Shown one piece after another: positions 3,522 to 48,442 of a stretch of DNA of 64,000 nt. The stretch comes from Methanomassiliicoccus sp. GTDB taxonomy: Archaea > Thermoplasmatota > Thermoplasmata > Methanomassiliicoccales > Methanomassiliicoccaceae. The position numbers and the translations under genes are program-made. The stretch spans positions 1 through 64,000 of the forward strand of contig JADFDJ010000004.1 of the NCBI GenBank assembly GCA_018262895.1, given 5' to 3'. Each line of letters starts with the position of its first letter. The stretch's first letter is position 1. The notes beneath the pieces were generated by a model, which searched no databases, was not told the DNA's origin, and saw only the letters and a list, made by a program, of their open reading frames with translations.

Positions 3522-5810
3522 TTATTGACGCCTCCTGCGCCACAGTGCAAATGCCCCCACCCCCACGCTGAGGATCGCCAGACCGGCAACCGCAGCCTGA
3601 CCCTCGCCGGTATCCAGGAACGATGGAGGTGTCGTCGGAGCGGATGTTGCAGGCAGTGTGACGTTCACCATGGTGCTCCGGTTGCTCTCACCGTTCGCGT
3701 TGTAGGCGCTGACCTGGTAGTAGTAGGTGCTCCCGTCGACCAGCCCCTGGTGGGTGTAGTTCGTGCTGTTGGTGGTAATGACAGCAACATCACCATCGAT
3801 CTCGGTGCTCCAGTAGATGTGATATCCGATCGTCGGTGAGCCTCCGTCGGCCATAGTATCGTTCCATGTCAGGGTAACATCAGCATCACCGGGGACCGCT
3901 GTCAGCCCATAGGGCTCGCTTGGAGCAGAGAGCTCCTCGATGTTGTCGCCCATGGTCAAGCCGTTCCACACCTCCCCCGGCGAGGGAAAGTTCGAGGCCG
4001 CGTATGCATGACCCCGGACCTCCGCCGATGTGTCATTGATCCAGTACTGACCGACATGAGGCGGTGCGACCGGTCCCCTGAAGGATATCGAGGACAGGTC
4101 GATGCAGCCAGAGAACGCCGAGCCCCCTATAGACGTCAGACCGCTCCCCAGGGTCACCGAGGTCAGACCGCTCTCGTAAAAGGCGTATCCCCCGATATCC
4201 GTCACATTGTCCGGGATGGTCAGGGCGGTCAGGGACCCGCAGAAAGCGAGCGCGCCATAGCCGACGGAGTTGACGCTCTCCGGGATGGAAACGTGGCTGA
4301 GCGAGGAACAGTTCCAGAACAGATAGCCCTCAATGGAGGTTACGCCCTCTGGAATATCGATTTATGTGAGGGACGGACAGCTCAGGAACGCCTGCTCCCC
4401 GATATAGGTAACGGTTTCAGGTATGGAGATCGAAGTCAGTGGGCAGTGCCTGAAAGCCCCGTCTCCGATGTGTGTCAAGCCCTCGGGCAGGTATATTGAG
4501 GTCAGGCCGCTCTCAGAGAACGCCCATGCCTCGATGGTAGTTATCCCGGCGGGGATGGTGATGGAGTTCAGGGAACTGCACTTGGCGAACGTGCCGTTCG
4601 GTATCGCCTCCATTCCCTGTCCCAGAGCGGCCGAGGTCAGAGGGCACTCGGTGAACGCATCGTACCCCATGTGAACGACGCTGTCCGGTATGGTAATCGA
4701 GTTCAGGCCGGATCCGGCGAAGGCGGACCACCCTATAGAAGTGACGCTTTCAGGGATCGTGATGGATGCCAGCGATCTACAGCCGAAGAACGCCTTGTCC
4801 CCTATGGAATTCAAACTGACCGGCAGGTTCACCGATGTTAGGGCGGAGCAGCCGGAGAAAACACCGTCCGGGATGCTCGATACGCTCTCAGGTACGTCCA
4901 CCGACGTCAGATTGCGGCAGTTCTTGAACGCTCCCAAGGCGATGCTCGCGACGCTGTCCGGAATGTTCACCGATGTGAGCGAGCACTCCTCGAACGCGAA
5001 GTTATCGATCCACGTCACGCTTCCAGAGATGTTCACGGAGGTCAGGGCGGAGCACTGGTAGAAAGCCCTCCACCCGATGGTGGACACCCCGTCGGGCACA
5101 GTGAACGACCCGCTCTTACCTCCGGGGCAGACGGTCAGCACGCTGAGGTCATTGTTGTACAGCACGCCTTCAACGCTAGTATAGTTCGGATTGCCTACCT
5201 CCACAACGATGTCGGTCAGGGAGCGGCAGCCGTCAAAGGCCCCGTAGCCTATCCACGTGACGCTCTGGGGTATGGTCATTTGTGTTAGACCGATGCAGTT
5301 GGAGAACGCGAGGTTCCCGATGTACGTCACGTTTGCTGGGATGACCACGGAGGTCAGGGCGGAGCAGCCGCGAAAGGTCCCGTTGTCTATGCTGGCCACG
5401 TTGCCAGGGATCGTTACTGACAGCAGGGAGGAGCACTGAAAGAACGCGTAGTCCCCGACGAACGTCACGCTGCCCGGTATGGTCACCGAAGTGAGGTCGA
5501 TGCAGTTGTAGAACGCATCATCCCCGATCCATGTGACGCTGTCGGGAATCGCGACAGATGTCACCTTGGTATCCTTGAAGGAATTGAACCCGATGCCGAC
5601 CACCGGGTAACCACCCAGTTCGCTCGGGACCGCTACAGAGCTGGCGCTGCCGGTATACCTGGTCACGGTGACCTCGCCGTTCCTCACATCGAAGTTGTAA
5701 TCGCTCTCCCCTACCGCTACCACGACGTCCGTTGGGACCAAGAGGAACGTACCCAGCAAGGCTATGATCATTGCCATCGTGATCGTGAGTCCCCTGACCC
5801 CCCGTGCCAT
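3522..5810 (-). pseudogene. BspA-like LRR / FN3 cell-surface protein interrupted by in-frame TAA
   Basis: The frame runs from a well-placed ATG (5810, preceded by GGGAGGG) to 3522 with one break: TAA at 4364-4362. It opens with a signal peptide (MARGVRGLTITMAMIIALLG) and continues with about twenty 23-residue BspA/TpLRR-type leucine-rich repeats (pattern LTSVTIPxSVTxIGxxAFxxC). Then come one fibronectin type III domain and a C-terminal membrane helix followed by RRRRQ, so the protein was exported and anchored outside the cell. LRR sequence continues in frame straight after the stop (CPSLT-stop-IDIPEGVTSI), where most repeats have a serine or similar residue, so a single base change such as TCA to TAA explains it. 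The gene is either a recent pseudogene, read through, or affected by a sequencing error. A restart at 4205 (ATG) would give an anchored fragment without a signal peptide. Confidence 0.85.
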
Positions 5811-5857
5811 CCTTTTTCCCTCCCGATATCTTTGGCTATCATCATGCTGAGGTTTTA

Positions 5858-5889
5858 CATATTAAAAAGAAAAAAATATTAAAAAAATT
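5858..5889 (-). terminator. poly-T terminator of the propeller/FN3 gene, overlapping LRR promoter
   Basis: On the minus strand this reads as runs of seven and seven T residues separated by AATA, just past the stop of the gene ending at 5931. Such U-tracts terminate archaeal transcription without a hairpin. The far end (TTTAATATG, about 5858-5868) can also serve as a TATA-like box for the next minus-strand gene starting at 5810. Confidence 0.55.
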
Positions 5890-5930
5890 GAAGCGGAGCG
5901 TTCAGCTGACCCTTATTGGAGAGCCTTCTC

Positions 5931-8003
5931 CTATTGTGCCCTCCTCTTGTTCCTGAGCAGAAGCGCTGCCGCTCCCACCACTGCCGCTCCTCCCACACCG
6001 GCCACTGCCACGTACTCCAACGGGATGCTGGAGCCGGTGGTGCCGCCAACCGATGCGGTCACCTTGCTCGACGCCTGCCCCAGGCCGTTGGCGTTCTTGG
6101 CGGTGACCTGGTAGTAGTGATCGCCGCCCTCGCCCGCGTTGGTGTCCACGAAAGTCGTGTCAGTGACGGTCGCGACCTGTGTCAGGTTCGTCGAGTCATT
6201 ACCACGGTAGATGGTATACTCGATCACCGGCGACCCTCCGTCGTCCGAGGGCTCATCCCACGTGAGCTTTATGTCCTCCCCATCCACGCTGGCGGTGAGG
6301 TTCGTTGGCTCCGACGGGAGCATCGCCTCATCCACCATTGTGACGTCGATCTGGCCGCTGGGCTCGCCCTCGCCCACCTGGTTCTGGGCGGTGACATAGT
6401 AGAAGTACGTCTCACCGCCCTGCAGACCGGTGTGCAGGAAGCTCGTTCCCTGGACCGGTATGCTGTTGAAGTCCGCATGAGGGTTCAGGCTCCAGTAGAG
6501 CACGTAGCCGGTTATTGACGCCCCGCCTGTGCTCACCGGCTCGCTCCAGGAGAGCTGCACCTCACCGCTGCCAGGTGTCGCGTTGAACTGCTCCGGAGCT
6601 GACGGCAGCGTGATCTCAGGTGATGGCATCGCTCCCGGCGTTGCGCTCACCGTTCCACTGGCCGGACCCTCTCCCATGGAGTTGTTCGCAGCTACGGCGA
6701 AATCATAGCTGACGCCGTTGGTGAGGCCGTCAATGACAACGGTCGTCTCCGTTACCGTCGTCACGGCGGTCCCGTTCTGGTAGACCACATAGTGGTTCAC
6801 CGGGGAACCGCCATCGTTCGCGGGAGCGGTCCAATCGAGCTGGACCTGGCCGAGCCCTGGTGTGGCGGTCAGTCCGATCGGAGGCCCAAGCGATGGCACC
6901 CCGACCGATGAGAAGGTCGCATACTTCAGGTCCCCGTTGGTATCGTCGTAGTAGCTGATGTGGACCCCGTCCGACCGATCGACGGCGATGGCCGAGTCTC
7001 CTCCCACATCACCCTCACTGTCGATCACCCAGTAGCTCGGTTCTCCGCCTGAGTTGGTGAAGTAGCAGAGCACCCCCTCCTCATAGCTGTAGTAGCTGAT
7101 GTGGAACTGGTCAAGCGAATCTATGGCTATGGAGGAGTGATTGCCCACCTCCACCATGTCATCGATTATGTACAGTTTCCAAGAGCCAGCGGAGTTGGTC
7201 GCGTACAGGAGGTCCCCGTTCGTGGCGTCACAGTAGCTGATGTGGATCCCGTCCTTGGAGTCGATGGCGATCGAGGAGTCGTACCCCGTATCCCCCTCGG
7301 TATCCACGATGAACTTCTGCCATGTACCTGAAGTGTTGTTGGCGTACCTCAGGTGCATGTTCTCGGCGTCATAGTAGCTGATGTGGATCCCGTCCTTGGA
7401 GTCGATGGCGATCGCCGAATGGTCGCCGACCGCCACCTCGCTGTCGATGATATTTATGCTCCATTGACCCCCAGAATTGGTGACGTATCTAAGAGTCTCG
7501 TTCGTATAGTCCCAGTAGCTTATGTGGACATTGTCCTGAGAGTCGATGGCGATGGCCGAGTCCACCCCCACATCTTCATCGCTGTCGACCACCCAGCGGC
7601 TCCACGAACCACCGACATTGGTAGCATAGTCCAGGTCCATGTTGGTGGCGTCATAGTAGCTTATATGGACGTTATCCTGCGAATCTATCGCGACCGAGGG
7701 ATTGTAGCCTACATCTCCCTCGCTGTCGATGATCCATTTGGTCCACGAATCGCTCACATTGGTAGCCCATATCAGGTCCCCGTTGTCGTAATCATAGTAG
7801 CAGATGTGGACGTAACCCTTTGAATCGATGGCTATCGAGCTCCGCTCGCCAACGTCCCCCACGGAGTCGATCGTCATGATCGATGGGTCCCCCGCATCCG
7901 CTGCCTCTACTGTTCCAGGTACTGACACAATAATGGACGCACCTGCCGAGATGGCCATCATCAGTGCCAAAAACAAGACAGCACATTCTCTATTATGCCC
8001 CAT
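5931..8003 (-). CDS. surface protein: seven propeller-like repeats plus three FN3 domains
   Basis: This encodes a 690-residue predicted exported protein. The ATG at 8003 follows GGGAGAGG. There is an N-terminal signal peptide (residues about 1-35). Then come seven tandem repeats of about 47 residues (core SIAIDSxDxxHISYYD, then LxYATN and a Trp), a number that fits a seven-bladed beta-propeller. Three FN3 domains follow (from about residues 375, 470 and 560), each with the Tyr-rich YYxVTAxNxxG signature. A C-terminal membrane helix ends in RNKRRAQ. The architecture suggests an anchored adhesin or carbohydrate/protein-binding surface protein. It lies just upstream of the interrupted LRR/FN3 gene, which shares the same anchor style, so the two probably belong to one surface-protein island. 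Confidence 0.88.
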   Translation of the reverse strand: MGHNRECAVLFLALMMAISAGASIIVSVPGTVEAADAGDPSIMTIDSVGDVGERSSIAIDSKGYVHICYYDYDNGDLIWATNVSDSWTKWIIDSEGDVGYNPSVAIDSQDNVHISYYDATNMDLDYATNVGGSWSRWVVDSDEDVGVDSAIAIDSQDNVHISYWDYTNETLRYVTNSGGQWSINIIDSEVAVGDHSAIAIDSKDGIHISYYDAENMHLRYANNTSGTWQKFIVDTEGDTGYDSSIAIDSKDGIHISYCDATNGDLLYATNSAGSWKLYIIDDMVEVGNHSSIAIDSLDQFHISYYSYEEGVLCYFTNSGGEPSYWVIDSEGDVGGDSAIAVDRSDGVHISYYDDTNGDLKYATFSSVGVPSLGPPIGLTATPGLGQVQLDWTAPANDGGSPVNHYVVYQNGTAVTTVTETTVVIDGLTNGVSYDFAVAANNSMGEGPASGTVSATPGAMPSPEITLPSAPEQFNATPGSGEVQLSWSEPVSTGGASITGYVLYWSLNPHADFNSIPVQGTSFLHTGLQGGETYFYYVTAQNQVGEGEPSGQIDVTMVDEAMLPSEPTNLTASVDGEDIKLTWDEPSDDGGSPVIEYTIYRGNDSTNLTQVATVTDTTFVDTNAGEGGDHYYQVTAKNANGLGQASSKVTASVGGTTGSSIPLEYVAVAGVGGAAVVGAAALLLRNKRRAQ
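6890..7875 (-). repeat. seven tandem ~141-bp coding repeats
   Basis: Inside the surface-protein gene, seven consecutive units of about 47 codons each encode the motif IDSxxDVGxxSxIAIDSxDxxHISYYD. The repeats are clear in protein and partly in DNA (for example recurring tcgatggcgat segments on the plus strand). They could recombine, changing repeat number. Confidence 0.8.
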
Positions 8004-19445: not shown

Positions 19446-20969
19446 TTAGGCAGGAGACTGTATCGGCAGCGGGATGTTCACATTGTAGGTTTCTGGACCA
19501 AGGAATCCGAAGTCCTGGTAGTACCAGTCGTTGCTTGTGTGCACCACGCCGTACAGTCCGTTGATCACCAGCGACTGGGTGTTGGGAACCCAGAAGCAGA
19601 CCCAGACCTTGGCCTCTCCGCCAGGTGCCAGGCCACTGGCGAAATCATTCGGTCCAATAAATCTGCCCTCCATACCACTATAGGAATTATTATCCGTGTC
19701 CGTTACATAGAGGTTACGAACATTCAGGTTCGTGTTGATGGTATTCTGAGCGTTCTTGACCTTCAGCAGGACGAACACTGGATCCCACCCATTGTCGATG
19801 GGATAACCGAAATCCGATGGGTATTTCCTAGGATCGGCGGTAATGTACCACTTCTCCACAGAGATCCATAAACCGTGCCAGTAAACGGTGTTACCAGTCG
19901 CTTTCGTGGTCGCGTGCCCATCCACCTTCATATACTTCGCGTTGCCCGGGAAGTGCGCCTCCACGCTCCACTGACCAGCCATGTAGCACGGGAACTCCAC
20001 GGTGGCAATTCCATCTTTCAGCGATGATGTGGAATCGATGCTCACCGAGACGCCGTTACTGTTCTTGAAGGTCCAGGTGATCTCAGCGTCCACTCCAGGT
20101 AGCCATGGAGAAACCTTGCAGTACACATCGTACGTCTTGACGAGCAGCTGGCACTTGAACGTGTATGTCTCACCGGCGACCATCGATGCCGGCACCTCGA
20201 TCATGTCGATCTTGGACGGCCAGGGCTTATCGCATTGCACCGGGTCCTTCTTTTCCACGCTTACACTGAAGTATTCTGTGGTTGTCGATCCCTTGTGCTC
20301 GTCGTTCCCAGCGAACGAAGCAATGAATTGGTACGATCCGGCAACGGTCGGTATGTAGTCCATCGAGAACTTACCAGAACTATCGGTAACGACGCTCTTC
20401 CCCTGAGAGGGGCTGGCGAAACTTCCGTCAGGCTTCTTGACGCTCAGCGTCACAGTGGCTCCCGCGATCCCCGAGGTCCCGGTGAGCTGCCCGCTTGCAT
20501 GCATGTTCTTTCCGACATCGATATCGTATGCAACCAGGGTCAACATGATCGTGGTCTCTTTCTTTTCTAACGTTTCTTCAACTGTTACCTGGGTGATGAC
20601 AGAGCATCCCTGGTAGTTGGCGGTCTCGGAGAAGGCCGCCGTGAACTTGTAAGTGCCTTTAGTATCTGGCACATAGTCTATGTCGAAATTACCTGAGCTG
20701 TCGGTCCTCACGTTCGCTCCCTGCACAGGGTACGCGCTCGTCCCGTCCGGCTTGGTGATCATCAGGGTCACCAGCATATCGGGGATGCCATCTCCCGACC
20801 TCAGCTTACCATCGATGTGGATTGATTCGCCCATCTCTATGATCGACGACGCCGGTATCAAGGCGATCGATGTACTATTCTTCCCCGTTAACGAGGCGCT
20901 GGCGAAAACGCCTACAGAACCTATCAACAGCATAGCGACGATGGCTGTTGCGATCAATTTTTTGTCCAT
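19446..20969 (-). CDS. secreted protein with two Ig-like repeats
   Basis: This encodes 507 residues from the ATG at 20969, which follows GGGAGGAATTAC; a longer frame to 21185 is not needed. A signal peptide (MDKKLIATAIVAMLLIGSVG) precedes two Big/Ig-like repeats of about 100 residues (residues about 30-130 and 133-235). Each carries TKPDGTSAYPVQG or KKPDGSFASPSQG, then TDSSGxFxxDYxPxxxGxYxFxAxF. The rest is a Trp/Tyr-rich beta region with no C-terminal anchor. It is probably an exported structural or binding protein, possibly held by association with S-layer components. Confidence 0.82.
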   Translation of the reverse strand: MDKKLIATAIVAMLLIGSVGVFASASLTGKNSTSIALIPASSIIEMGESIHIDGKLRSGDGIPDMLVTLMITKPDGTSAYPVQGANVRTDSSGNFDIDYVPDTKGTYKFTAAFSETANYQGCSVITQVTVEETLEKKETTIMLTLVAYDIDVGKNMHASGQLTGTSGIAGATVTLSVKKPDGSFASPSQGKSVVTDSSGKFSMDYIPTVAGSYQFIASFAGNDEHKGSTTTEYFSVSVEKKDPVQCDKPWPSKIDMIEVPASMVAGETYTFKCQLLVKTYDVYCKVSPWLPGVDAEITWTFKNSNGVSVSIDSTSSLKDGIATVEFPCYMAGQWSVEAHFPGNAKYMKVDGHATTKATGNTVYWHGLWISVEKWYITADPRKYPSDFGYPIDNGWDPVFVLLKVKNAQNTINTNLNVRNLYVTDTDNNSYSGMEGRFIGPNDFASGLAPGGEAKVWVCFWVPNTQSLVINGLYGVVHTSNDWYYQDFGFLGPETYNVNIPLPIQSPA

Positions 20970-21299
20970 GTAATTCCTCCCTTTTTCTTGCCCATTCTCT
21001 TCCTCACGATCTCTCCCCCTTGTCTCGAGCCTCTTTCTTATTTTCCTCTTCGCTTCCTCCAGACCTGTGTGCCTACCTTTTGTCAGCAGAGCGAGCCCAT
21101 CTCGTTCGTTCCACAGGCCTAGGTACAAGGAGGGCCGGGGGAACGATAACAAAATTAGAAGATGGGGTGAGCTTCTAAGGTCCAAGGCCCCGAGAGACTG
21201 TTCGTTGAGATCTCTCGTTGTCTACCTGGGGCATTATCAGCTCGATCGATGGGGGGAACCCAATATCCACTGTTAGGACTATCTTGAACGAATCCGTGC

Positions 21300-23543
21300 T
21301 CACTCGAGCCTAGAACCGCAATTGGAGCAGAACTGGAAGATGGGGGAGTTGCGGGCGCCGCAGCTGCTGCACACGGGCCTGTAATCTGCGTGGCATCCGG
21401 TGCACAGGAAGTGGCCTTCCTCGATGGGCTGACCACATTGGATGCAGGCTCTGGACGAACTATCTTTTATCAATAGGAACAGGACCCTGGAGTAAATTGA
21501 GGATCGTTGCTTGTCCTGAACGCTCCCCATCACCTCGTGGATGAGCTTCGCCGATCTGGTGGATTGGACCTTTTCCAGGCTCGGGGAGAAGGGAACGTTC
21601 CCCAGCACCGCCAGGGCCAGGAGGATCGATATCTTCTCCTTCCGCTGCTCCTGGGGCACATCAGCGTCGAGCTCTGCCAGCAACATGCTGTACGGTCCGT
21701 TGTCCGGCCTGAAGGTCTGAGCGGAGTTCGTGAAGAACGTTTCAATGTACCCCGACATTCCGATCAGGTCCTCGACCGTCATCGAACCAAGGAACTCTTG
21801 CAGGCGCGGCCTTGATTGGAACGTACGGATCAATGGGAGCATGATGATCGCCCTCTTCTCGGAGAGCGTGTCGAACTCCCGCCTGACCAAGGGATCGAAG
21901 AACCCGACGCTGTCATCCTTCTCGGACAGAACGCCATAGAGCTTCATTGCCTCCAGATACTGCTCTATCTCCACGCTGCGGGCGCTCTCGAAGGTCTCCA
22001 ATAGCCATGACATCACTCTCCTTGAGATCCCCTCCCGATAGTGTGGGGACCGCTCATCCTTCATGATGTGCGCGAGGACGAGCATGGGCTGCACCGCGGG
22101 GATGTTCTCCATGCTGCGGTCGTACTCGTACAGGATTCCCAGGTGCAGCAGCGCCTCGCTGATCTGCCGGTCCAGGAACGATGTGTCCGGTGAGATGCCG
22201 TCCACACCGCGCTGGGCGATCGACGGCAGGTTCTTGATGTTCCGTATCAGGAAGTAGAGGCGCATCTGGCCCGAGCACTGCTCGTACAGCAGGCCTATGC
22301 CACCTTTCACGTCGGACGGTGCAAGCCCTTCCAGGTCCTCGACCTCATTGGTGATGAGTGACGATGCCTCCTGTACGAACTCGGCCCTTTCGGGCATGCC
22401 GATGCTCAGCATCCTGATCGTCCTGCTATCCTTTTCGAACCCCGCCACGCCGGCAACCTCATCGACATGACGGAAGAGGGAGCGGGGGTTGTTCTCCACG
22501 GCGGTCACCAGGCGGAAACCGTCCATCCCCGTGATCTTCTCGTACAGCACCCTCACTGCCTCCCTCTTGGTGTCCAGCGTCCAGCCGAAGGACCCGCGTT
22601 CCAGGTGATCGATGCCGATGTACCAGCGCCAGAAGGTGGAATCGCCGGGTATGAGCCTGTCCAGGTTGATGTTCTCCAGGAAAACGGCCAGCTCCTCCTC
22701 GAACTCATGCAGGGAGATCCGGCGCCTGAGCCTGTCCTCGGACCGCAGGTAGGCGGAGGCGGACATGTACACCTGCTTGTTGATGTCCTCCACCAGCGAG
22801 CCTATTCGCTCGTCGAGGAGGTTCAGCAGCATCGCGTACCTCCTGTCCGAGGTCGTATCTGAACCTAGGAGGTGTTCGACCAGCAGCTCCGGGATATGCC
22901 CCCACTCACCGTCGCCCGTCCTTCCGCGGCGCGGCCGTTTCTCATCGTCCAGGACCCCCGGGACCTTCTTGGCATCACATACCGCCCGCGCCAACCTGTC
23001 GGAGAACTGCACCAGTGACGATTCCGCCAGCTTGGTCACCTGGGCCTCATCGAACCCCTGCTCGATGCTGGCCTCCAGATGGACCTCCACGATGGTCCTG
23101 TCCATCTGCATCAGGGTGGAGGTACCATGGAACGTGGTGGCGTTCGCTCTCGCGTCCAGGTCCTGCTCCCTCCCCAGCAGAAAGCTCCTCTCCTCCCTGA
23201 CCCCGTTCGCGTCCCACTTCACGACGATTGTCGCTCCACGGCGCGTGACTGGCCTCCCCCTCACCCTGAGGAACTGAACGAAGGACTCCAGGTCCTCGAA
23301 GTACAGGGAGTGGCCGGACTCCGGGCATTTGGTCTGTGATGAGCTGTTCTTCGGCGATACCCCGCCCAGGTCCCTGAGGGTATGAAGCATCAGGGTGGTC
23401 TTCCCCATCCCTCCAAGGCCGGCAAGGAGCACGCCGTCCCTGCCATCTGCCAGATGCTGGCACAGCGACCGTCTCTCCCTCCCCCTTCCGAAAAGGTGGT
23501 CGTGCCTTATCAGCTCGTTATCAAGGGCTCTAAGCGACCTCAT
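21300..23543 (-). CDS. STAND-like P-loop ATPase with C-terminal double zinc ribbon
   Basis: This encodes 747 residues. The N-terminus follows the STAND/NACHT-like pattern: HDHLFGRGRERRSLCQHL, then Walker A GLGGMGKTT (residues 42-50). A long helical middle region has a possible sensor-type strand (FRLVTAVENNPRSLF). The last 48 residues hold four CxxC knuckles (CIQC, CTGC, CSSC, CSNC), a double zinc ribbon. Such ATPases act as nucleotide-switched signalling hubs. The ATG follows GAGGGAGGGGG and overlaps the 3' end of the GTPase gene by 14 bp, so the two are co-translated and probably form one complex. A clear Walker B is not obvious to me. Confidence 0.8.
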   Translation of the reverse strand: MRSLRALDNELIRHDHLFGRGRERRSLCQHLADGRDGVLLAGLGGMGKTTLMLHTLRDLGGVSPKNSSSQTKCPESGHSLYFEDLESFVQFLRVRGRPVTRRGATIVVKWDANGVREERSFLLGREQDLDARANATTFHGTSTLMQMDRTIVEVHLEASIEQGFDEAQVTKLAESSLVQFSDRLARAVCDAKKVPGVLDDEKRPRRGRTGDGEWGHIPELLVEHLLGSDTTSDRRYAMLLNLLDERIGSLVEDINKQVYMSASAYLRSEDRLRRRISLHEFEEELAVFLENINLDRLIPGDSTFWRWYIGIDHLERGSFGWTLDTKREAVRVLYEKITGMDGFRLVTAVENNPRSLFRHVDEVAGVAGFEKDSRTIRMLSIGMPERAEFVQEASSLITNEVEDLEGLAPSDVKGGIGLLYEQCSGQMRLYFLIRNIKNLPSIAQRGVDGISPDTSFLDRQISEALLHLGILYEYDRSMENIPAVQPMLVLAHIMKDERSPHYREGISRRVMSWLLETFESARSVEIEQYLEAMKLYGVLSEKDDSVGFFDPLVRREFDTLSEKRAIIMLPLIRTFQSRPRLQEFLGSMTVEDLIGMSGYIETFFTNSAQTFRPDNGPYSMLLAELDADVPQEQRKEKISILLALAVLGNVPFSPSLEKVQSTRSAKLIHEVMGSVQDKQRSSIYSRVLFLLIKDSSSRACIQCGQPIEEGHFLCTGCHADYRPVCSSCGARNSPIFQFCSNCGSRLE

Positions 23544-25404
23544 CCCCCTCCCTCATCTCGCCGAGGAACGATCTCAGGCTCAGGAGCAACGCCCTGGTAA
23601 GAGCTGACCGTTCTTTCCCCGAGCCGAGCATGTAGCTGTCGATCCAGGCCATGGTGGCGGCAAAGTAGTCCTCTGGGACCTTGGTCCCGTGAGCATCGTA
23701 CACCTCCTCCTTGAACCTCTGGGCATCCTCACCGGGCAGCAGGTTTCCTATCACTCCCTGGTTGATGCCGAGCCGTATCCCGGTGAAGGCCTTCCTCCGG
23801 TCCTCGTCGGATGTCCCGAAGACTGCCATGAGCAGTTTCCTCGAGATCTCGCTACGATCCACGTGGAGCGTGGACAAGAATCCCAGGCTCTCGCCCGATA
23901 ACCCCTCCCCATGCTCGTCGATCGCGGCCAGGAAGCACCGCTCATGGTCGCTCTTGAACTGACCTACTATCCCGGCCTTCTCCGCGTTGTCCGCCTTGTT
24001 GAGCAGCAGGAATATCTTGTTCGGAAGCTCGAGTTCGAAGAAGGCCAGGTTCTGCACCTCCTCCAGGAACCTGATGAAGACATCCTCGAACCCGTGGAGG
24101 TCCTTCACCAGGTCGTAGCTTGGCTCGCAGGACCACACGAACAGCAGGTTGTAGTCCGCCGGATCGTCGAGGAACATCTTCCTCCTCATCTCCCTCACCG
24201 AGATCGTCAGCTGCTGGCCCAGGAGACGGTAGTCCTCTGAGCCGGCGGTGTCCATCCAGCACAAGGTCAGCCTTTTCTTGCTGCTGCTGAAGAGCGGGAC
24301 CTCGATATCCTTGAACATGTGCCCGACCACGAAGGCTGTGCTCTTCGGGTCGATGTCCTCGGTGAGGCCTCCGTTCCCGTAGTCCTCCCTCAGCACGTCA
24401 TAGCACCTGCGGAGGAACGTTGTCTTTCCAGAACCGCCCATCCCCACCACCACCAGCCCTGCCCGGTCCATCTCCCTTGAGCGGTTCAGGCGGTCCGCAA
24501 GTTCCCGGTACTCACGGAAGGAGGACATGAAGGAGGCGAGGAAGTCCTCCCTGAGCGTCAGGAACATCGTGCTCTTCTTCGGTCCGCGGTCAAGGTCGAT
24601 GGAGTCGATGAGGCATTTCACGAGGCACGCCTGTCTGATAGCGTCCCGGTGCAGCTGCCTCAGATCGTCATTCAGGTCTCTCTCCCACTCCGCTAACATC
24701 CTGGATGCCCTCAAGGCCATCTGCCCCATCTCTATCTCCAGGGCCTCGGTGGACATGAACCGCTCCAGAAGCCACAGTAAGGGTATGATACGGCCCTCGA
24801 TGAAACGGTCCTTGTTCAGACCTTTCTTCTCTCCACCAATCAACTCCCATGCGCTGGCCATCAGATCGGAGCATCGGATGGGCATCCTCACGCCAAGGAT
24901 CGGCCCCCCATCGTCCTCGATGGCACCGTTGATCGTCCTCCAATCGTTCACCAGAAGATCATTCTCCTTCCGCCCCTTCCTGTCGGAGATGCTCTTCTTC
25001 AGGAGGTGGGTCATCTGACCGAACTCAGCGTCCGCGAGGAACACCGTCCTTACGACATCGTAGAGATAATCGTCCAGCTTGAAGTCGTCCAAAATATCCA
25101 TTTTTTCCTCGAGCCTCGCCAGCTCCTTCTCCGCATCCGAGCGTTTACGTTTTGCTTGCGCCTCCGTCAGGGATATGTCCTTGGCGATAGAGTCCAGGTT
25201 CTTTTTCCACCCATCCATGGCGTTCAAGATGTGCTCTCTTTTCTGGGACAGGAAGTGGTCGGCGAAAGACGCCACGATGTCCCCGCCCAAGATGACCTTG
25301 GTCCTCTGCTTACCGACGGAGTAGCGGAAGCATTGGTCATCCTCCGTGTTCCAGCTAAAGCCGCCATCTTGGACGCACGCTGTCTGGATGGTTGTTTCCG
25401 ACAC
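23530..25404 (-). CDS. large GTPase-like protein with N-terminal coiled coil
   Basis: This encodes 624 residues (GTG at 25404 after GGTGAGCGGGG). An N-terminal region with a predicted coiled coil (about 70-105) and all-helical segments leads into a Ras-like GTPase domain: G1 GMGGSGKTT (321-329), switch II DTAGSEDYR (385-393), G4 NKAD (469-472). A helical C-terminal tail follows (520-624). There are no membrane helices. It ends in TAG and overlaps the STAND-like gene by 14 bp. A G-protein coupled to a STAND ATPase suggests a nucleotide-gated signalling or conflict (defence-type) module; this is inference. The exact GTPase family is not one I can name. Confidence 0.8.
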   Translation of the reverse strand: MSETTIQTACVQDGGFSWNTEDDQCFRYSVGKQRTKVILGGDIVASFADHFLSQKREHILNAMDGWKKNLDSIAKDISLTEAQAKRKRSDAEKELARLEEKMDILDDFKLDDYLYDVVRTVFLADAEFGQMTHLLKKSISDRKGRKENDLLVNDWRTINGAIEDDGGPILGVRMPIRCSDLMASAWELIGGEKKGLNKDRFIEGRIIPLLWLLERFMSTEALEIEMGQMALRASRMLAEWERDLNDDLRQLHRDAIRQACLVKCLIDSIDLDRGPKKSTMFLTLREDFLASFMSSFREYRELADRLNRSREMDRAGLVVVGMGGSGKTTFLRRCYDVLREDYGNGGLTEDIDPKSTAFVVGHMFKDIEVPLFSSSKKRLTLCWMDTAGSEDYRLLGQQLTISVREMRRKMFLDDPADYNLLFVWSCEPSYDLVKDLHGFEDVFIRFLEEVQNLAFFELELPNKIFLLLNKADNAEKAGIVGQFKSDHERCFLAAIDEHGEGLSGESLGFLSTLHVDRSEISRKLLMAVFGTSDEDRRKAFTGIRLGINQGVIGNLLPGEDAQRFKEEVYDAHGTKVPEDYFAATMAWIDSYMLGSGKERSALTRALLLSLRSFLGEMREGDEVA

Positions 25405-25436
25405 CCCCGCTCACCGTTCAATCGAATGTACGATCA

Positions 25437-25446
25437 AAATAAAAAG
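25437..25446 (-). promoter_or_regulatory. TATA-like box of the GTPase/STAND operon
   Basis: The minus strand reads TTTTTATTTT about 37 nt upstream of the GTG at 25404, placing a transcription start near 25415 and leaving room for the GGTGAG ribosome-binding site. Confidence 0.4.
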
Positions 25447-25802
25447 GTCCCTACCGAAGGTATGGACCAATATTAGTGGGGATGGTTGCGTTCGGCCTTT
25501 CCTCATCCTAAAGGACCGTTCCATGTCGCGGCACAACATCTATTATTTCTTGTAATGCCATATTAAGGTGGGTCCAATGTGCAGGGAAAGGATCGTGAGA
25601 TCTCCAAGGGATTGGTGCCATACCATGCCTCCTTACCATCGGATAGCTCCATGGTCGCTCCCCCTCCCATGTGGACCCTTCATGACATTGAAGGAAGGAG
25701 AGCATCAGGGATGGGACCGGCATTGCTCCGTTCATCGTCCCTGCGGAGCTTTCCTTTCTTGTGCACCGCCATTCTTCCACAACCCCTGGAGGCCTTGATC
25801 CG

Positions 25803-26252
25803 ATGCTCGCTGTGAGCGATGGACAAGCGGCGCTGTTCCCGGCCGACCTTTGGCCATACATCTACATCATCTTCGTCATCTCGCTGTTCGCCATAGCCAT
25901 CGGGTACTGGTTCATCGTTCACGATGAGGTCAAGAGAAGGCCGATAGCGAAGGAGAGGATAGCGAGCCTCGCCAAGGAGGTCGAAGGAATGGCAGAGTAT
26001 GCAAAGCCAGCGTTCCTGGAGAAGCTTGCTGTCTGCAAGGACCTGTTCCAGCGTAAGTATTACGATCGTTCCTTGAAGCTCGCAGACAGGGCGCTGGGCG
26101 AGGCCAAGGAGCTGAACGACATCGCGCACCAGGTGGAGGCGGAGATGGGATCAATGACCTCCAAATTACGGAAGGCAAGAGAGCTTGGCCTGGAGATCGA
26201 CGAGGATGCGATAGGTCTAACACAGCTCAAGAGGGACCTTAAGATGAGGTGA
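25803..26252 (+). CDS. membrane-anchored coiled-coil/helical-repeat protein
   Basis: This encodes 149 residues from the ATG at 25803, preceded by GGAGG. One membrane helix lies near the N-terminus (WPYIYIIFVISLFAIAIGYW), followed by a cytoplasmic helical region of about 110 residues. That region contains a TPR-like hairpin (CKDLFQRKYYDRSLKLADRAL) and a coiled coil. It is opposite in strand to both neighbours, but its helical style resembles the 26291-26878 protein, which has similar regularly spaced leucines. It may tether the adjacent GTPase/STAND proteins to the membrane; this is inference. Confidence 0.7.
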   Translation: MLAVSDGQAALFPADLWPYIYIIFVISLFAIAIGYWFIVHDEVKRRPIAKERIASLAKEVEGMAEYAKPAFLEKLAVCKDLFQRKYYDRSLKLADRALGEAKELNDIAHQVEAEMGSMTSKLRKARELGLEIDEDAIGLTQLKRDLKMR

Positions 26253-26290
26253 TGGACCGCTCGCATAACGGACGAACGTGCCGTTGGGCG

Positions 26291-26878
26291 TCATTTCCTG
26301 CTCTCTTTCGACGATGCTGCACCGCAGAAGGGGCAGTTATTGAAGGCCTCGGAAACCTTCTTACCGCAGCTGGCGCACTCCGCAAGGGCAGATTCCAGGT
26401 CGTACCCGCACACGGGGCACATGATCGCCCCGGTAGCGATGCCTGCACCGCAGAGGCCGCACACGGTATCGCCATTGACGCCTTCCCTGTTCGTTGGCAG
26501 GGGTGGCGGTGATCCAGCATCCTCAACGTCGGCCGAGAGGTACCCTATCTCCGCCTCTAAATTTTTCAGGGCATCGTCTGCGCCCAGATAATCCTCGAGG
26601 ATGATCATGTTCTCTATTTCCTTCAAAGAGGTGTTCAGATTTCCAGGGCTGTCTGGACCGCCCCTCTGTGATCGTTCCTCGACCCTCGACATCCTGTTCA
26701 CTAGAGGTTGGCTCCACTTGACCGCCAGTTCGTAAGCGTTCAAGCTGCTTCTGGCCTCAGTGTGGTTCGCTGATCTGATGAGCTTCCCGACACCCTCCAG
26801 CCTGGAGATCAGATCTGATCGGAGCCTATCGTTCCTGGCGAAAGGACCATTGTCAAGCTGAGACCTGTGCTCCATCAC
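26291..26878 (-). CDS. coiled-coil protein with C-terminal double zinc ribbon
   Basis: This encodes 195 residues from GTG/ATG at 26878, but the same frame stays open and protein-like for about 31 codons further upstream (DIARDLLARTKLINQRIDEL). No ATG, GTG or TTG occurs there; an AAAGGAGG element lies 7 nt before a CTG at 26971. The true start may be that CTG. The protein is mainly helical coiled coil, then a Pro-rich linker and four CxxC knuckles (CGLC, CPVC, CASC, CPFC). The zinc-ribbon tail echoes the STAND-like protein nearby, suggesting a common partner. Confidence 0.7.
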   Translation of the reverse strand: MMEHRSQLDNGPFARNDRLRSDLISRLEGVGKLIRSANHTEARSSLNAYELAVKWSQPLVNRMSRVEERSQRGGPDSPGNLNTSLKEIENMIILEDYLGADDALKNLEAEIGYLSADVEDAGSPPPLPTNREGVNGDTVCGLCGAGIATGAIMCPVCGYDLESALAECASCGKKVSEAFNNCPFCGAASSKESRK

Positions 26879-27215
26879 CTTCTGATGAAGGTCAATGAGC
26901 TCATCGATGCGCTGGTTGATGAGCTTCGTGCGTGCCAGAAGGTCCCTCGCAATGTCTACGGAAGTTACCAGCCTGATGCCTCCTTTGTTGGATCGCTTTT
27001 TAGAGACATTGCGGGGGCCGATGCCACCTTATGACAGGTCACCTTCAGATGGGTGCTCGTGTTCAAGCCTTGGCCATGCCTCCTCCGCCACACGCTCACG
27101 ATCTTCCTTTTTCGCACTTTCTCGTCCAAGCCGATATTCGTGTCGATGATATATGCTCATATTCACACCTTGGTCGATTTCCTTGGAGGTCAGAGATCGT
27201 CATCGTCAAGAAGGA

Positions 27216-40020: not shown

Positions 40021-40827
40021 TCACTGTCCGCCGGCAGGTGACGCAGGGGCACCCGCCTTCCAGGAGATGATACCGTCCAGCATGGCCGCGAAGGTGGCGC
40101 TTGAAGGAACTACGGAGACGTGGATGCCCATCCCCTCCAGCTTCCTCCTCGTCGGCCCTCCCATGGCCGCGACCAGGTGAGCGTTGAGCATGGCTATGAT
40201 GTCCTCACGCGGGTAAGATAGCTCAGCGGCGGTGATGTATGTTTCCGCCGAGAGGGACGATGTGAAGGCGAACGCATCCACCCTACCCGCCATGCTCTCA
40301 TCGATGAGGTACTTGAGCTCCGGGCTGCCGAGGTCCGGGACCAGCCGGTACAGCACCCTCTCTGACACTTTTGCCCCGCATTCCACCAGTCCGTCGAACA
40401 GCGACCTCTCACCATGTGATGAGCGGAGAAGGCACACCTTTTTACCAGCCAGCTGCCTCCCCATCTGCCGAACCAGGCCGTCGGAGGAGTGCTCGTCGGG
40501 AACCATGTCGACCCTGATACCCCGGTCGTTCATGGCCTCGGCCGTCAACGGTCCGATGGCGATGTTGTAGCATCCTGCGAGCAACGTAGCCAGCTCCGCA
40601 CGGCTCTCCGTTGCCATCATGTCCAGGACCTCCACGCCTGTGGTGCTGGTCAGGACCACGACCTCGGCGGCGCCCTCCTTCAGCAGCTCGATGATAGCGG
40701 CGCCCTCCGCACCGTTTATTGGCTGCACCAGAAGAGGGGACGCCGATACCACATCCAGCCCCCTCTCCCTGGCCAGCTGGAGCGATTCCTCGAGCTTGTC
40801 CTGCGGACGCATCACCGCCAGCCTCAT
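40021..40827 (-). CDS. hemD: uroporphyrinogen-III synthase
   Basis: This encodes 268 residues. It fits the poorly conserved HemD fold: two alpha/beta domains with VVLTSTTGVEVLDMM, NIAIGPLTAEAMNDRGIRVDMVP, VCLLRSSHGERSLFDGL and DAFAFTSSLSAETYITAA followed by AAMGGPTRRKLEGMGI. It cyclises hydroxymethylbilane to uroporphyrinogen III. It is the last gene of the sirC-hemABL-hemC-cobA-hemD operon; its ATG overlaps the cobA stop (ATGA). Position and motifs agree. Confidence 0.9.
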   Translation of the reverse strand: MRLAVMRPQDKLEESLQLARERGLDVVSASPLLVQPINGAEGAAIIELLKEGAAEVVVLTSTTGVEVLDMMATESRAELATLLAGCYNIAIGPLTAEAMNDRGIRVDMVPDEHSSDGLVRQMGRQLAGKKVCLLRSSHGERSLFDGLVECGAKVSERVLYRLVPDLGSPELKYLIDESMAGRVDAFAFTSSLSAETYITAAELSYPREDIIAMLNAHLVAAMGGPTRRKLEGMGIHVSVVPSSATFAAMLDGIISWKAGAPASPAGGQ

Positions 40828-41567
40828 CGCAGATCACCCAGCCGGTGGTAGCAGCCCACCACATCGCCCACGACCACGATCGAGGGCGAGCCCACTCCCT
40901 GGTCCCGGCAATCCCTCACTACCTCCCTCAGGGTGGATATCACCACCCTCTGTTGAGGTGTCGAACCGCGATGGACGACCCCCACGGGGGTGGCCGGGTC
41001 CATGCCGCCCTCCATGAGCCGGGACATGTTGTGCTCCAGGTTGCTCATGCCCATGAGTATCACGATGGTACCTCCGGTCCGGGCCAGGGCGCCCCAGTCG
41101 ATGCGCTCGTCGGAGCGGTCACCTCGCTCATGGCCGGTGACGAAGGTCACCATAGGTGCATGGTCACGATGCGTAACGGGGATCCCGGCCAGTGCGGGAG
41201 CTGCGATCGCCGAGGTGACGCCTGGCACCACGTGGACATCTATCCCGGCCTTCCGGAGCTCCTCCGCTTCCTCCCCGCCCCGACCGAACAGGAAGGGATC
41301 GCCCCCCTTCAGCCTGACCACCTTGTTGCCGGCCCTGGCCTCGTCTACTATGATCTGGTTTATGCCCTCCTGGGGGACCTTGTGGCGCCCGCCCTGCTTC
41401 CCCACGTCGATGAGCTTGGCCCCGGGATGGACATGGTCCAGGAGATCGTGGTTGGCCAGCTCGTCGTAGACGACGACATCCGCCTTTCTAAGCAGCTCCA
41501 TTCCCTTCACGGTTATGAGCCCGGCGTCTCCGGGACCGGCCCCAACGAGATATGCCTCTCCGGGCAT
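40824..41567 (-). CDS. cobA: uroporphyrinogen-III C-methyltransferase (SUMT)
   Basis: This encodes 247 residues. SUMT motifs: VGAGPGDAGLITVKG at the start, VRLKGGDPFLFGRGGEE (the SAM/substrate loop), VVPGVTSAIAAPALAGIPVTHR. It methylates uroporphyrinogen III twice to precorrin-2, the branch point to siroheme, cobalamin and F430. The gene starts 3 nt after the hemC TAG stop and is in frame with hemC. The product feeds SirC in the same operon. Confidence 0.95.
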   Translation of the reverse strand: MPGEAYLVGAGPGDAGLITVKGMELLRKADVVVYDELANHDLLDHVHPGAKLIDVGKQGGRHKVPQEGINQIIVDEARAGNKVVRLKGGDPFLFGRGGEEAEELRKAGIDVHVVPGVTSAIAAPALAGIPVTHRDHAPMVTFVTGHERGDRSDERIDWGALARTGGTIVILMGMSNLEHNMSRLMEGGMDPATPVGVVHRGSTPQQRVVISTLREVVRDCRDQGVGSPSIVVVGDVVGCYHRLGDLR

Positions 41568-41570
41568 GGT

Positions 41571-42446
41571 CTAGCCTCCCACCGCTGGCCGGAGCAGGTC
41601 CGCGATGCTGTCAAGCTCCGCTCTCATTTCGCTCAGGCGCACCACCTTGTCGACGTGGACGGTGTTCTCCCTGGATCGTCCCGTAACCGTACCGACGATC
41701 CTCAGCTCGCTCCCTTGCATAGATGCCCACACTCCAATCGGTACCGAGCAGCCACCGCCCAGCGCCCTCAGGACGTAACGCTCGGCCTCCACCTCTGTCC
41801 GTGTCCTTATATCGTTCAAGGCCTGCAGGACGTGAAGATGAGGGCTGTGCTCGGTGCAGACCAGTGCGATCGCGCCCTGGCCCGGGGCAGGGACGAACTC
41901 CTCGGGGTCCAGGATGAAGCCCTTCTCAGTGATCCCCAGGCGGTCCAGACCCGCCCTGGCGAGCACTATGGCATCATACTGTCCGTCCTTCCACTTCTTT
42001 ATGCGCGTGGGCACGTTCCCGCGTAGGTCCCGCACCCTCAGGTCCGGCCTCTTGGCCTCGAGCAGCGAACGACGGCGCACGCTCGACGACCCCACCACTG
42101 CTCCAGATGGAAGCTCCTCAAGGGGGACCTCGGACAGGAGCATGTCCTCCACCGGCCCTCTCGGGAGGACAGCTGCCATCTTGGTCCCCGGCGTCAGGTC
42201 CACGGGCATGTCCTTAAGGCTGTTGACCGCCACATCTATCTGACCTTCCAGTATACGCTGGTCCAGCTCCTTGGTGAAGGCGCCGTAGCCACCGAGCGTG
42301 GACAGGGGGCGGTCGGTGACCCTGTCGCCCGTGGTCCTCACCTCCAGCACCTCCAACTCCAGGTCCGGGTCGCGGGACGCCAGCATCCCCATCACTATCT
42401 TCGTCTGGGCCATCGCCAGGGCGCTGCCGCGGGTGCCGACTATCAT
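41571..42446 (-). CDS. hemC: hydroxymethylbilane synthase (porphobilinogen deaminase)
   Basis: This encodes 291 residues from ATG at 42446 ([15 protein letters not shown]), overlapping the hemL stop as ATGA. Key features: RGSALAMAQT, VNSLKDMP with the catalytic Asp region, VGSSSVRRRSLL, and LRALGGGCSVPIG, where the Cys anchors the dipyrromethane cofactor. It condenses four porphobilinogens. It ends in TAG, and TAG-ACC-ATG leads in frame into cobA. Confidence 0.95.
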   Translation of the reverse strand: MIVGTRGSALAMAQTKIVMGMLASRDPDLELEVLEVRTTGDRVTDRPLSTLGGYGAFTKELDQRILEGQIDVAVNSLKDMPVDLTPGTKMAAVLPRGPVEDMLLSEVPLEELPSGAVVGSSSVRRRSLLEAKRPDLRVRDLRGNVPTRIKKWKDGQYDAIVLARAGLDRLGITEKGFILDPEEFVPAPGQGAIALVCTEHSPHLHVLQALNDIRTRTEVEAERYVLRALGGGCSVPIGVWASMQGSELRIVGTVTGRSRENTVHVDKVVRLSEMRAELDSIADLLRPAVGG

Positions 42447-43717
42447 CTCGACACCTCGCGCAGGCAGGCGGCTAAACAATCCACGGTTCTCCTGATGTCC
42501 TCATCGGTGTGGGCCGTGGACAGGAAGTTGGTCTCGAACTGAGAGGGCGCCAGGTAGATGCCATCGTCCAGAAGACGGCGGAACAGGCGGTCGAACATGG
42601 CGCTGTCCGAGGACAGCGCCTCACGGTAGTTCCGTACCGGAGAGGACGAGAGGAACAGCTGGAACATGGAGCCTATGCCCGCCACCTTATGCGGCACCTT
42701 GAGGTCCCAAAGCGCCTCCTCAAGACCCCGGCGCATGAGGTCGCCCTTGCGCTCCAGGCCCTCATGGCCCTGACCGCGCAGCTCCTTCACGGTGGCCATG
42801 CCCGCGGCGAGGGACATAGGGTTCCCGGAGAAGGTGCCAGCCTGGTACACCTTTCCCAGCGGGGAGATCTTGCTCATGATATCCTCGGAGGCGCCGAAGA
42901 CCCCGATAGGCATCCCGCCGCCTGCGATCTTCCCCAGCGTGGTGATGTCAGGAGCGACCCCGTAGCGACGCTGGGCCCCTCCCATGGAGAGCCGGAAACC
43001 GGTGATGACCTCATCGAAGATCAGGAGCGTCCCGTGCGCGGTCGTCAGATCCCTAAGCCCTTGAAGGAAGCCCTCGGCGGGAAGAACTGGACCCACATTG
43101 CCCATCACCGGCTCGACGATGACCGCGGCGACCTCGCCCCGGTGCGCCCTCAGCGCGCTCTCGACTGAACCAAGATCGTTGTAAGTTGCCAACAGAGTGT
43201 TGGAGGCTACCTCCTCCAGGACTCCCGATGAGTTGGGGGCGCCGTGGGTGGTGGCCCCTGAACCAGCCTTCACCAGGACGGCATCGTGGGCCCCGTGGAA
43301 GCATCCCTCGAACTTCAGGACCTTCTTACGGCCAGTGTGGCCGCGCGCCAGCCTCAGGGCGTGCATGGTCGCCTCGGTGCCGCTGCTCACGAAGCGCACC
43401 ATCTCCATGGACCGGTACTCCCTCGATATCTCCTCTGCGAACTGGGCCTCGGCCTCGATGGGGGCCCCGTAGAGGGTTCCCCTCTCCGCCTGCGCCTGAA
43501 GGGCACTGACGACGGCCGGGTGAGCGTGTCCCAGTATGAGGGGGCCGAAGGCCATGCAGTAGTCTATGTACTCGTTTCCGTCCACATCGGTTATCCGGTC
43601 CCCCTTGGCCGAGGAGATGTAGCGGGGATATGGCTGGTACGCCCGCACCGGAGAGGAGACTCCCCCTGGCATGACCTTCCGCGCCCTTTGGTAGAGGCTC
43701 TCGGACCGTCCGTTCAT
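42443..43717 (-). CDS. hemL: glutamate-1-semialdehyde 2,1-aminomutase
   Basis: This encodes 424 residues from ATG at 43717 ([19 protein letters not shown]), overlapping the hemB stop as ATGA. It is a PLP enzyme with [17 protein letters not shown] (phosphate binding), [12 protein letters not shown], and the PLP lysine in [14 protein letters not shown]. It converts glutamate semialdehyde, made by HemA, to 5-aminolevulinate. The family's usual length is 425-430 residues. Upstream in-frame sequence back to 43789 overlaps hemB and is not coding. Confidence 0.96.
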
Positions 43718-44682
43718 TCCGCCACCACCCTGGCCACCTCCTTGGCGAAGTAGGTGATGATGATGTCCGCCCCCGCGCGCTTGATGCAACGCAGGGATTC
43801 CATCATGGCCCTGTCATGATCGATCCACCCGTTCGCGGCAGCGGCCTTTATCATCGAGTACTCCCCGCTCACCTGGTATGCGGCTATGGGAACATCGAAC
43901 CTCTCCCGGGCCCGGTGCAATATGTCCAGATACGGCAAGGCCGGCTTGACCATAAGGATGTCCGCTCCTTCCTCGAGGTCCAGGCTCATCTCCCGGAGCG
44001 CCTCCCGGGCGTTCCCCGGATCCATCTGGTGGCTCCTCCGGTCACCGTGCTGGGGGGTGCTCTCGGCGGCGTCCCGGAAGGGGCCGTAGAACGAGGAGGC
44101 GTACTTGGCGGCATAGGACATTATAGGTATATTCTCGAAGCCTGATCGGTCCAGCGCTGCCCGGATCGCTGCCACCTGTCCGTCCATCATCCCTGAGGGG
44201 GCTATCATGTCCGCCCCCGCCCTTGCCTGGCTGACCGCAATCGCCGCGTACCGCTCCAGGGTTGAATCGTTGTCGACGTCGCCACCTTTCAGCATACCGC
44301 AGTGGCCGTGATCGGTGTACTCGCAGAGGCACAGGTCCGTGATGATGGTGACGTCGGATGCCTTCCTGATCTCCTTTATACCTCTCTGGACGATGCCATC
44401 GGGGTCGCCCGCAGAGGTCCCTCCAGGGTCCTTCCTGCTGGGAACTCCGAAAAGGAGCACCGCCGGTATCCCCAGCTCCTCGACGCAGCGTGCCTCCTCA
44501 CCTACATCCGAAACGGGCAGGGAGAGCACACCCGGCATGGAGGCTATCTCCTTGGGGGCGGTCAGGTTCTCGTTCACGAACAAAGGGTAGACCAGATCAC
44601 GGACCGAGAGCTCGGTCTCCCGGACCAGGTCCCTAATGTTCTGTCTCGCTCGCAGCCTTCGAGGTCTGCTCTGTGGGAACAA
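43714..44682 (-). CDS. hemB: delta-aminolevulinic acid dehydratase (porphobilinogen synthase)
   Basis: This encodes 322 residues. The best start is TTG at 44682, giving [15 protein letters not shown], the normal HemB beginning, with GAAGGTG 6 nt before it. It overlaps the end of hemA by 50 bp. The zinc-site cysteines are in [15 protein letters not shown], and the active-site lysines in [15 protein letters not shown] and [13 protein letters not shown]. It condenses two 5-aminolevulinates into porphobilinogen. It is a zinc-dependent type. Confidence 0.95.
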
Positions 44683-45943
44683 TCGTAGCACCTTCCAATT
44701 TGAACAAACTCTGAACCTTCTCGAAAACATCCTCGTTGCCCTCGCGGCAGGCATCCTTAAGAGCCACCGTGGGGTCCGCGAGGAACTTCCTAGTGATGAC
44801 GTCAGCGAAATCCTTGAGGACGACCTCAGCAGGCTCCTGTCCCGAGCTCAGGCGGTTCAGGGCCTTGCGGACCTCACGGTCCCGGAGGCTGAAGTACTTC
44901 CCGTACAGCCTTCCGAGTATCTCGTCGGCCTTCATCTCCTTCATTCGCGCCCCGAGGGCGTCCAGCTCCTGGGAGATGATCAGCTCCGCCCCCCTGATCT
45001 CCGAGCGGCGCTTGAGGAGGTTCTCCTCAGCCTTTCCTCTTAGGCCATCTATGTCGTACAGCTCCACACCCTGAAGCTCGGCCACCTGCGGTTCCACGTT
45101 GCGGGGAAAGCTGACGTCGATTATCAGTAGCTTGCTGTCCACCTTCCGCAGCTCCTGCGCCCTTCGCACATGCGCTGGCGTTATGATCATGTGCGACGCC
45201 GAAGTGGCCACCAGTACCACGTCCGCCTGCGAGAAGAACTCCATCAGGCTGTCGAACCGCACCGCTTTTCCGTTCAGCACCCAGGCCAGCTCCACCGCCC
45301 TGGAGTAGGTGCGGTTGGAGACGAACACGGCCTTCGGGCCCTTGCCCACGAGATGCTTAGCGATGAGGGTGGCCATCTCCCCCGCCCCCACCACCAGGAT
45401 GTTCTTGTCCTTCAAAGAGCCTACCTTCTCCTCGGCCAGCTCCACAGCCGCCGTCCCTATGGACACGCACCCCTTGTTGACGCTGGTCCTGCTGCGGACC
45501 ATCTTCCCCACCGAGATGGCCTTCTGGAATACGATGGTGAGCACCGGCCCTACGCTGCCATGGCGCTTGGCCAGGTCGAAGGCCTCCTTCACCTGACACT
45601 GGATCTGGTCCTCACCCACAATAAGCGACTCCAGGCCGCTGGACACTCTGAGGATGTGCCTGACCGACTCCTTCCCATTCAGGTACTGGACCAGGTTCTG
45701 CTCGGCGTCGAAAGGCACCAGACCGTTGATCAGGTCCTCCAGGCCTTTGCGGGTGGCGTTGAGGTCCTTCGTGGCAAGGTATAGCTCCATGCGGTTGCAG
45801 GTGCGCAGCACTATGCACTCCGTGGCCCCCGGAATGGATAGGGCGTTCCTCATCATCAGCACCGGGTCGATCTTCCCGAGCCTCTCCATGTCCGCCACTC
45901 TGGCCTGCTTATGGGTAATGTGAGCGCTGAGGATGGACTCCAT
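44633..45943 (-). CDS. hemA: glutamyl-tRNA reductase
   Basis: This encodes 436 residues. The catalytic cysteine is Cys49 in [17 protein letters not shown]-binding ([20 protein letters not shown]) and dimerisation helices follow. It reduces the glutamate on tRNA-Glu to the semialdehyde, the first committed tetrapyrrole step, and is usually feedback controlled. The ATG directly abuts the sirC TAG stop and is in the same reading frame as sirC. The stop is TAG. Confidence 0.96.
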
Positions 45944-46555: not shown

Positions 46556-46610
46556 TACCCCTTGTCGAACCCGTATCGGTGAAGGACGTTAATACAATCA
46601 TCGTATTTAA

Positions 46611-46627
46611 TTGGATGTATCATCCAA
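46611..46627. promoter_or_regulatory. palindromic operator TTGGAT-N5-ATCCAA (copy 2)
   Basis: This perfect palindrome (TTGGATG-TAT-CATCCAA when arms are extended by one) lies in the sirC/cfbA divergent promoter, directly after TATTTAAT (46603-46610). That AT-rich box reads TATA-like on both strands, so one bound regulator could control both operons. It is identical in arms and spacing to the site at 37509-37525. Confidence 0.7.
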
Positions 46628-46740
46628 CTTATTGCCCCTTCACGCTGGACGCTTTACCGGCCTCGAATAGAAGCTTAATTAAGGGGACCGTGTATTTCCG
46701 CTCGACCGATTTCGCGGTCAATGACAAGGGGATTTCGAAA

Positions 46741-47139: not shown

Positions 47140-47141
47140 AC

Positions 47142-48437: not shown

Positions 48438-48442
48438 AGGAC

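Follow-up and report, generated by a model that had tools for sequence, protein, structure and literature searches.

The 64,000-nt stretch of DNA analysed here, from the methane-producing archaeon Methanomassiliicoccus (the window) contains a locus of four genes, all of them present where the first-pass annotation had placed them. One, on the reverse strand (23530..25404), encodes a Ras/Roc-like GTPase of 624 residues recognised from its motifs, profile matches and a structure model; it is followed on the same strand by a gene (21300..23543) for an ATPase of 747 residues, whose AAA_16/STAND-type P-loop was identified by profile matches and in the alignment. A large GTPase overlapping a 747-residue ATPase had been described, and the overlap was confirmed: the end of the GTPase gene and the start of the ATPase gene share 14 nt (23530..23543, reverse strand), and a G-rich stretch resembling a ribosome-binding site precedes the ATPase start inside the end of the GTPase gene. 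The ATPase does end, as claimed, in a double zinc ribbon (21312..21446, reverse strand; residues 700-743), which matched Pfam DZR above the cut-off and whose eight conserved cysteines are invariant in five genomes. Upstream of the GTPase gene, a TATA-like element TTTTTATTTT (25436..25445, reverse strand) was located by inspection of the sequence, as was a similar element at a similar distance from the GTPase gene in the relatives.

The other two genes are smaller. The forward strand encodes a membrane protein of about 149 residues (25803..26252), for which the ATG at 25803 is the likely start, as opposed to the beginning of the longest open reading frame at 25761; a single N-terminal transmembrane helix is followed by a helical region predicted to be cytoplasmic. 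On the reverse strand, from 26291 to about 26971, lies the gene of a helical protein of about 226 residues with a C-terminal double zinc ribbon. Its start is uncertain: the in-frame upstream sequence has no ATG, GTG or TTG, and a CTG at 26971 stands close after AGGAGG, an apparent CTG (or other rare codon) start behind a good ribosome-binding site; the relative in genome G019 has an ATG start. A candidate linked part, a gene encoding a secreted Ig-like protein (Big_3_5/filamin; 19446..21185, reverse strand), is located 115 bp downstream of the ATPase gene.

Homologues of the GTPase and the ATPase were 42-79% identical, and dN/dS of the four genes between two species was 0.19-0.31; we therefore consider all four genes to be real.

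Conservation and distribution of the locus

The GTPase was detected in five of the seven Methanomassiliicoccus genomes and the ATPase in the same five, with an identical 14-nt overlap in every case, which supports the pair being a fixed unit. The two outcomes that had been named beforehand as speaking against a dedicated system were thus not observed: the genes were not apart in most genomes, and the profile searches linked neither of them strongly to a housekeeping family. The membrane and zinc-ribbon protein genes were both found in the same four genomes (G000, G018, G019 and G020). They adjoin the GTPase-ATPase pair in G000, G019 and G020, and in G018 they lie about 6.5 kb from it, still as a two-gene unit of their own; in G000 and G019 they are convergent, and in G018 and G020 they follow each other on one strand. 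The genes flanking the locus differ between the G000/G019 and G018/G020 lineages, so the unit persists on at least two chromosomal backgrounds. The split GTPase of G018 was considered as a pseudogene and this was rejected, the assembly having an undetermined base and a frame break there.

The pair was absent from G022, a genome 99% complete in which true absence is likely, implying that members of the genus can live without the module; the absence from G017 is uninformative, as this genome is 67% complete and its syntenic contig stops before the locus. We did not find the pair in 140 other genomes of the order Methanomassiliicoccales, the GTPase profile gave no further relative among 400 genomes sampled from the class, and the full-length matches of the ATPase profile among 390 genomes sampled from the phylum were confined to the genus. 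A scan of 85,000 species with GTPase patterns returned only three genomes (G020, G021 and G018), and the relatives found in sequence records belonged to Methanomassiliicoccus or Thermoplasmatota bins. Among the genomes covered, the module is narrowly distributed and restricted to the genus. The literature search returned no paper on the locus or on the GTPase-ATPase pair.

Several other matches were inspected and discarded. A weak GTPase match in G061 came from an unrelated protein whose matched stretch has no P-loop, and a match of a Streptomyces plasmid to the G domain (E=0.01) reflected generic GTPase similarity. Matches to positions 503-628 of the ATPase profile in other Methanomassiliicoccales were attributed to chance, the two inspected (L096 and L098) looking like Lon-type proteases, and those phylum-wide matches to the ATPase N-terminus that were inspected were general wHTH-STAND-TPR proteins, aligned over the P-loop region only.

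The two nucleotide-binding proteins and their relation to known systems

The G1, DTAG and NKAD motifs reported earlier for the GTPase were all recovered, as GMGGSGKT (G1, residue 321), DTAGSEDY (G3, residue 385) and NKAD (G4, residue 469), and they are kept in the relatives, with NKSD as G4 in one of them. They are preceded by an N-terminal region of about 290 mostly helical residues. Pfam gave sub-threshold matches to P-loop families only, Ras and Roc among them. The structure model, built like that of the ATPase on an alignment of only 4-5 sequences, had a mean pLDDT of 66, and its Foldseek matches were Ras, Rho and Rac GTPases with a probability of 1.00 and modest E-values (about 4e-3 to 2e-2); the protein thus shows the features of a Ras-superfamily/TRAFAC GTPase, namely G1, G3 and G4 in a Ras-like fold. 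The position of the Ras Gln61 is occupied by Ser in all five genomes. A different residue at this position is also known in some GTPases of the MglA/Rup/Roco type (Roc), the Thr78 of MglA being a separate change.

The ATPase has its Walker A motif (GLGGMGKTT) at residues 42-50 and, judged by eye on the alignment, a putative Walker B (WYIGIDHLE) near residue 312, separated from beta-2 by an insert of about 180 residues; its C-terminal half is helical. The earlier label of STAND-like was fair, given an AAA_16 match at E=5e-5 and weak NB-ARC and nSTAND matches, but it does not amount to a family assignment. The AAA_16 matches (E=6e-6 to 5e-5) lay under the curated cut-off, and outside the zinc ribbons no family of Pfam, NCBIfam or PADLOC was above cut-off for any of the four proteins. 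The tripartite STAND layout of N-terminal effector, central NTPase and C-terminal repeat sensor was not found, since the P-loop starts at residue 42, leaving no effector domain ahead of it, and the C-terminus is helical with zinc ribbons. The label STAND remains provisional because the N-terminal core of the ATPase was not confidently modelled (pLDDT about 30). Foldseek matches of this poor model (ribosomal protein S3 and CcsBA, E>=0.18) were uninformative, and profile matches to WDR24/SEH1 of GATOR2 (E=0.08-0.14), located over the zinc-ribbon end, were not significant.

Compared with the archaeal wHTH-STAND-TPR regulators (for example L073 and L074), which recognisably resemble it in the AAA_16/STAND P-loop region (best E=6e-6), the ATPase has its P-loop at the extreme N-terminus, lacks the wHTH and the TPRs, and possesses the large insert before Walker B, the C-terminal zinc ribbons and a constant GTPase partner.

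The first-pass annotation had taken the zinc ribbons shared by two members as evidence of a nucleotide-switched complex. This argument proved weak: 15 open reading frames genome-wide carry DZR domains above cut-off, and the ATPase ribbon is 41% identical to that of an unlinked gene on contig C11 and 35% identical to that of its neighbour. Sharing a ribbon so common in the genome, and so similar in an unlinked gene, is therefore not evidence of a complex. A nucleotide-switched complex is nevertheless plausible.

It had also been claimed that no described system has this composition. The exact composition was indeed not found in the literature searched, but two systems come near it, minus the ATPase. 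The nearest in composition is DO-GTPase/GAP1, in which a TRAFAC-type GTPase is followed by a large partner gene, accompanied by helical, zinc-ribbon, membrane and FNIII proteins, and which is thought to be membrane-proximal (PMC7159879); the locus shares with it the GTPase, the large downstream partner and the helical, zinc-ribbon, membrane and beta-sandwich repeat parts. However, we found no GAP1 match, a P-loop ATPase stands in the place of GAP1, and the zinc ribbons are carried by the ATPase and by a further protein rather than by the GTPase N-terminus. Pfam DO-GTPase1 matched one of four relatives (E=0.28) and DO-GTPase2 none, so that neither core protein belongs to this system. The other is ArvABC, an archaeal vesiculating GTPase system whose further members are ArvC, which has a zinc ribbon, and ArvB (PMC10927574). 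Here the likeness is an archaeal Ras-superfamily GTPase clustered with a zinc-ribbon protein, whereas the GTPase of the locus is large, with its own N-terminal helical region, and a STAND-type ATPase is present. With MglA/MglB and Rup/Roco (PMC4316618) the GTPase has the Ras-like G domain in common, but the locus has neither a roadblock MglB partner nor LRR/COR, and its partner is an ATPase.

These comparisons bear on the possibility that the locus encodes a membrane-remodelling or trafficking machine (for vesicles, division or the positioning of a surface organelle), whose GTPase would act on the membrane directly, like haloarchaeal ArvA or bacterial MglA. The Ras/Rho-like fold, the one-helix membrane partner, the zinc-ribbon partner, which recalls ArvC (PMC10927574), and the envelope genes nearby are all consistent with such a machine. 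On the other hand, neither the four proteins nor their scanned neighbours matched the roadblock domain of MglB, no scanned protein matched DUF2073 (ArvB) or DUF2072 (ArvC), the GTPase exceeds 600 residues and is not a small GTPase, and an ATPase partner is found in neither the ArvA nor the MglA system. We regard this explanation as doubtful.

Genomic context and a proposed role

STAND-type NTPases are common in defence, and the first-pass annotation had leaned towards a defence role. If the system were antiviral or worked by abortive infection, its STAND-type ATPase would sense an invader and the GTPase or the zinc-ribbon parts would execute or gate a suicidal response; the patchy presence inside the genus fits such a role, and the DO-GTPase systems, partly similar in make-up, have been proposed as conflict systems (PMC7159879). 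The evidence gathered around the locus gave such a role no support. The proteins scanned at and around the locus included no transposase or integrase and matched no defence family or effector domain. Neighbouring genes belong to core metabolism, transporters and surface proteins; they include those for a pyrophosphatase, a deoxyinosine glycosylase-type UDG, an amino-acid permease, tetrapyrrole biosynthesis and a primase-like protein, and the one flanking ABC ATPase that matched MADS/AriA models did so as ABC ATPases do. PADLOC gave no meaningful score for the four proteins (E>=0.006, covering only the P-loop or short stretches), and no nuclease, pore, NADase or TIR domain was recognisable in them as an effector. 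Neither the GTPase nor the ATPase had a relative among viral contigs, phage records contained no ATPase relative, and plasmids gave none of note. Between G000 and G019, dN/dS was 0.22 for both the GTPase and the ATPase and 0.08-0.32 for neighbouring genes; the pair is thus under purifying selection at the level of its neighbours, and nothing in these values suggests an arms race. These null results remove the support for defence, a role that we now consider quite unlikely.

Regarding the wider window, large surface-type proteins, one with BspA-type leucine-rich repeats and one with a triple fibronectin type III region, are encoded at 4362-8003. A tetrapyrrole cluster at 40021-51647 (glutamyl-tRNA reductase, ALA dehydratase, porphobilinogen deaminase, uroporphyrinogen-III synthase and an aminotransferase) adjoins nitrogenase-like and CobB/CobQ-like proteins and probably serves coenzyme F430 and corrinoids. 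At 56066-57562, a 498-residue protein shows a weak match to the DNA primase small subunit (E=8.5e-7).

Each of the four genomes that have all the genes encodes a secreted Ig-like (Big_3_5) protein no more than 8 kb away: its gene adjoins the locus in G000 and G019 and the two small genes in G018, and in G020 it lies 7.6 kb from that of the ATPase. A single Big_3_5 protein was detected in G020, G018 had two, and G000 and G019 had several; we roughly estimated the chance of such a gene falling within 10 kb at about 1-2% for the G018/G020 lineage and about 6% for the G000/G019 lineage. The linkage of the Ig-like gene to the locus, based on two largely independent lineages, is suggestive. The Ig-like genes are located at 19446-21185 of the window, L059:14320-16659 and L120:7717-9597, and the Ig-like proteins of G018 and G020 are fusions with a beta-helix-like region.

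Surface-glycan genes (a GDP-mannose dehydratase-like protein, an epimerase-like protein and a Wzt-like ABC ATPase, identified by reading the open reading frames) also lie near the locus in G018 and G020, whose neighbourhoods have in common a PAS-GAF histidine kinase (56% identity; L059:8368-10917 and L058:16603-19044) and a secreted protein of about 410 residues (36% identity). Beside surface-glycan genes, G018 contains at least five related FemAB/GNAT-like open reading frames of about 370 residues, arranged in tandem (L121:3747-10949).

The free-living clade of Methanomassiliicoccales is reported to have more Ig-like and FN3 surface proteins (PMC7883539), and such richness in surface genes makes an accidental linkage likelier. 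The locus might then have nothing to do with the envelope and encode a factor that assembles a cytoplasmic complex, or controls its quality, in a nucleotide-dependent way; two NTPases and zinc ribbons would fit this too, and a weak, non-significant similarity of the ATPase to Orc4 (E=0.045) goes in the same direction. But the locus is confined to part of one genus, unlike assembly factors of core complexes, and every genome with the complete set has the gene of a membrane-anchored protein linked to it; this account seems improbable to us.

The reading that we prefer, tentatively and at a little under an even chance, is that of a genus-restricted, membrane-proximal signalling switch of two NTPases acting for the envelope. 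From the observed gene linkage, the GTPase and the STAND-type ATPase may be subunits of one complex, made in a fixed ratio if their translation is coupled. The Ser at the position of the catalytic Gln61 of Ras would probably keep GTP hydrolysis slow until a partner acts; the ATPase is the simplest candidate for this partner, and its ATP-dependent state could report to the GTPase or reset it. Anatomy and linkage suggest that the one-helix membrane protein may anchor the assembly and that the helical zinc-ribbon protein may be an adaptor. Going by the genes nearby, the output would most likely be control of envelope traits, for example how the Ig-like/beta-helix surface proteins and the surface glycan are displayed or assembled. 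The purifying selection on the pair also speaks for this reading; the convergence of the two small genes in G000, their distance from the pair in G018 and the absence of the locus from G022 speak against it. A more specific form, in which the STAND-type ATPase would be a dedicated GAP or exchange factor for the large Ras-like GTPase at the membrane, setting surface display through an ATP-plus-GTP switch, we hold to be rather unlikely.

The locus is real, conserved and undescribed, akin to membrane-proximal GTPase switch systems, and its composition lies outside DO-GTPase/GAP1, MglA/MglB and the Arv systems. Its small distribution limits its general weight. A partner or a task is known for few archaeal Ras-like GTPases, and a GTPase fixed by a conserved gene overlap to a STAND-type ATPase offers a simple system in which the control of one nucleotide switch by another can be tested.
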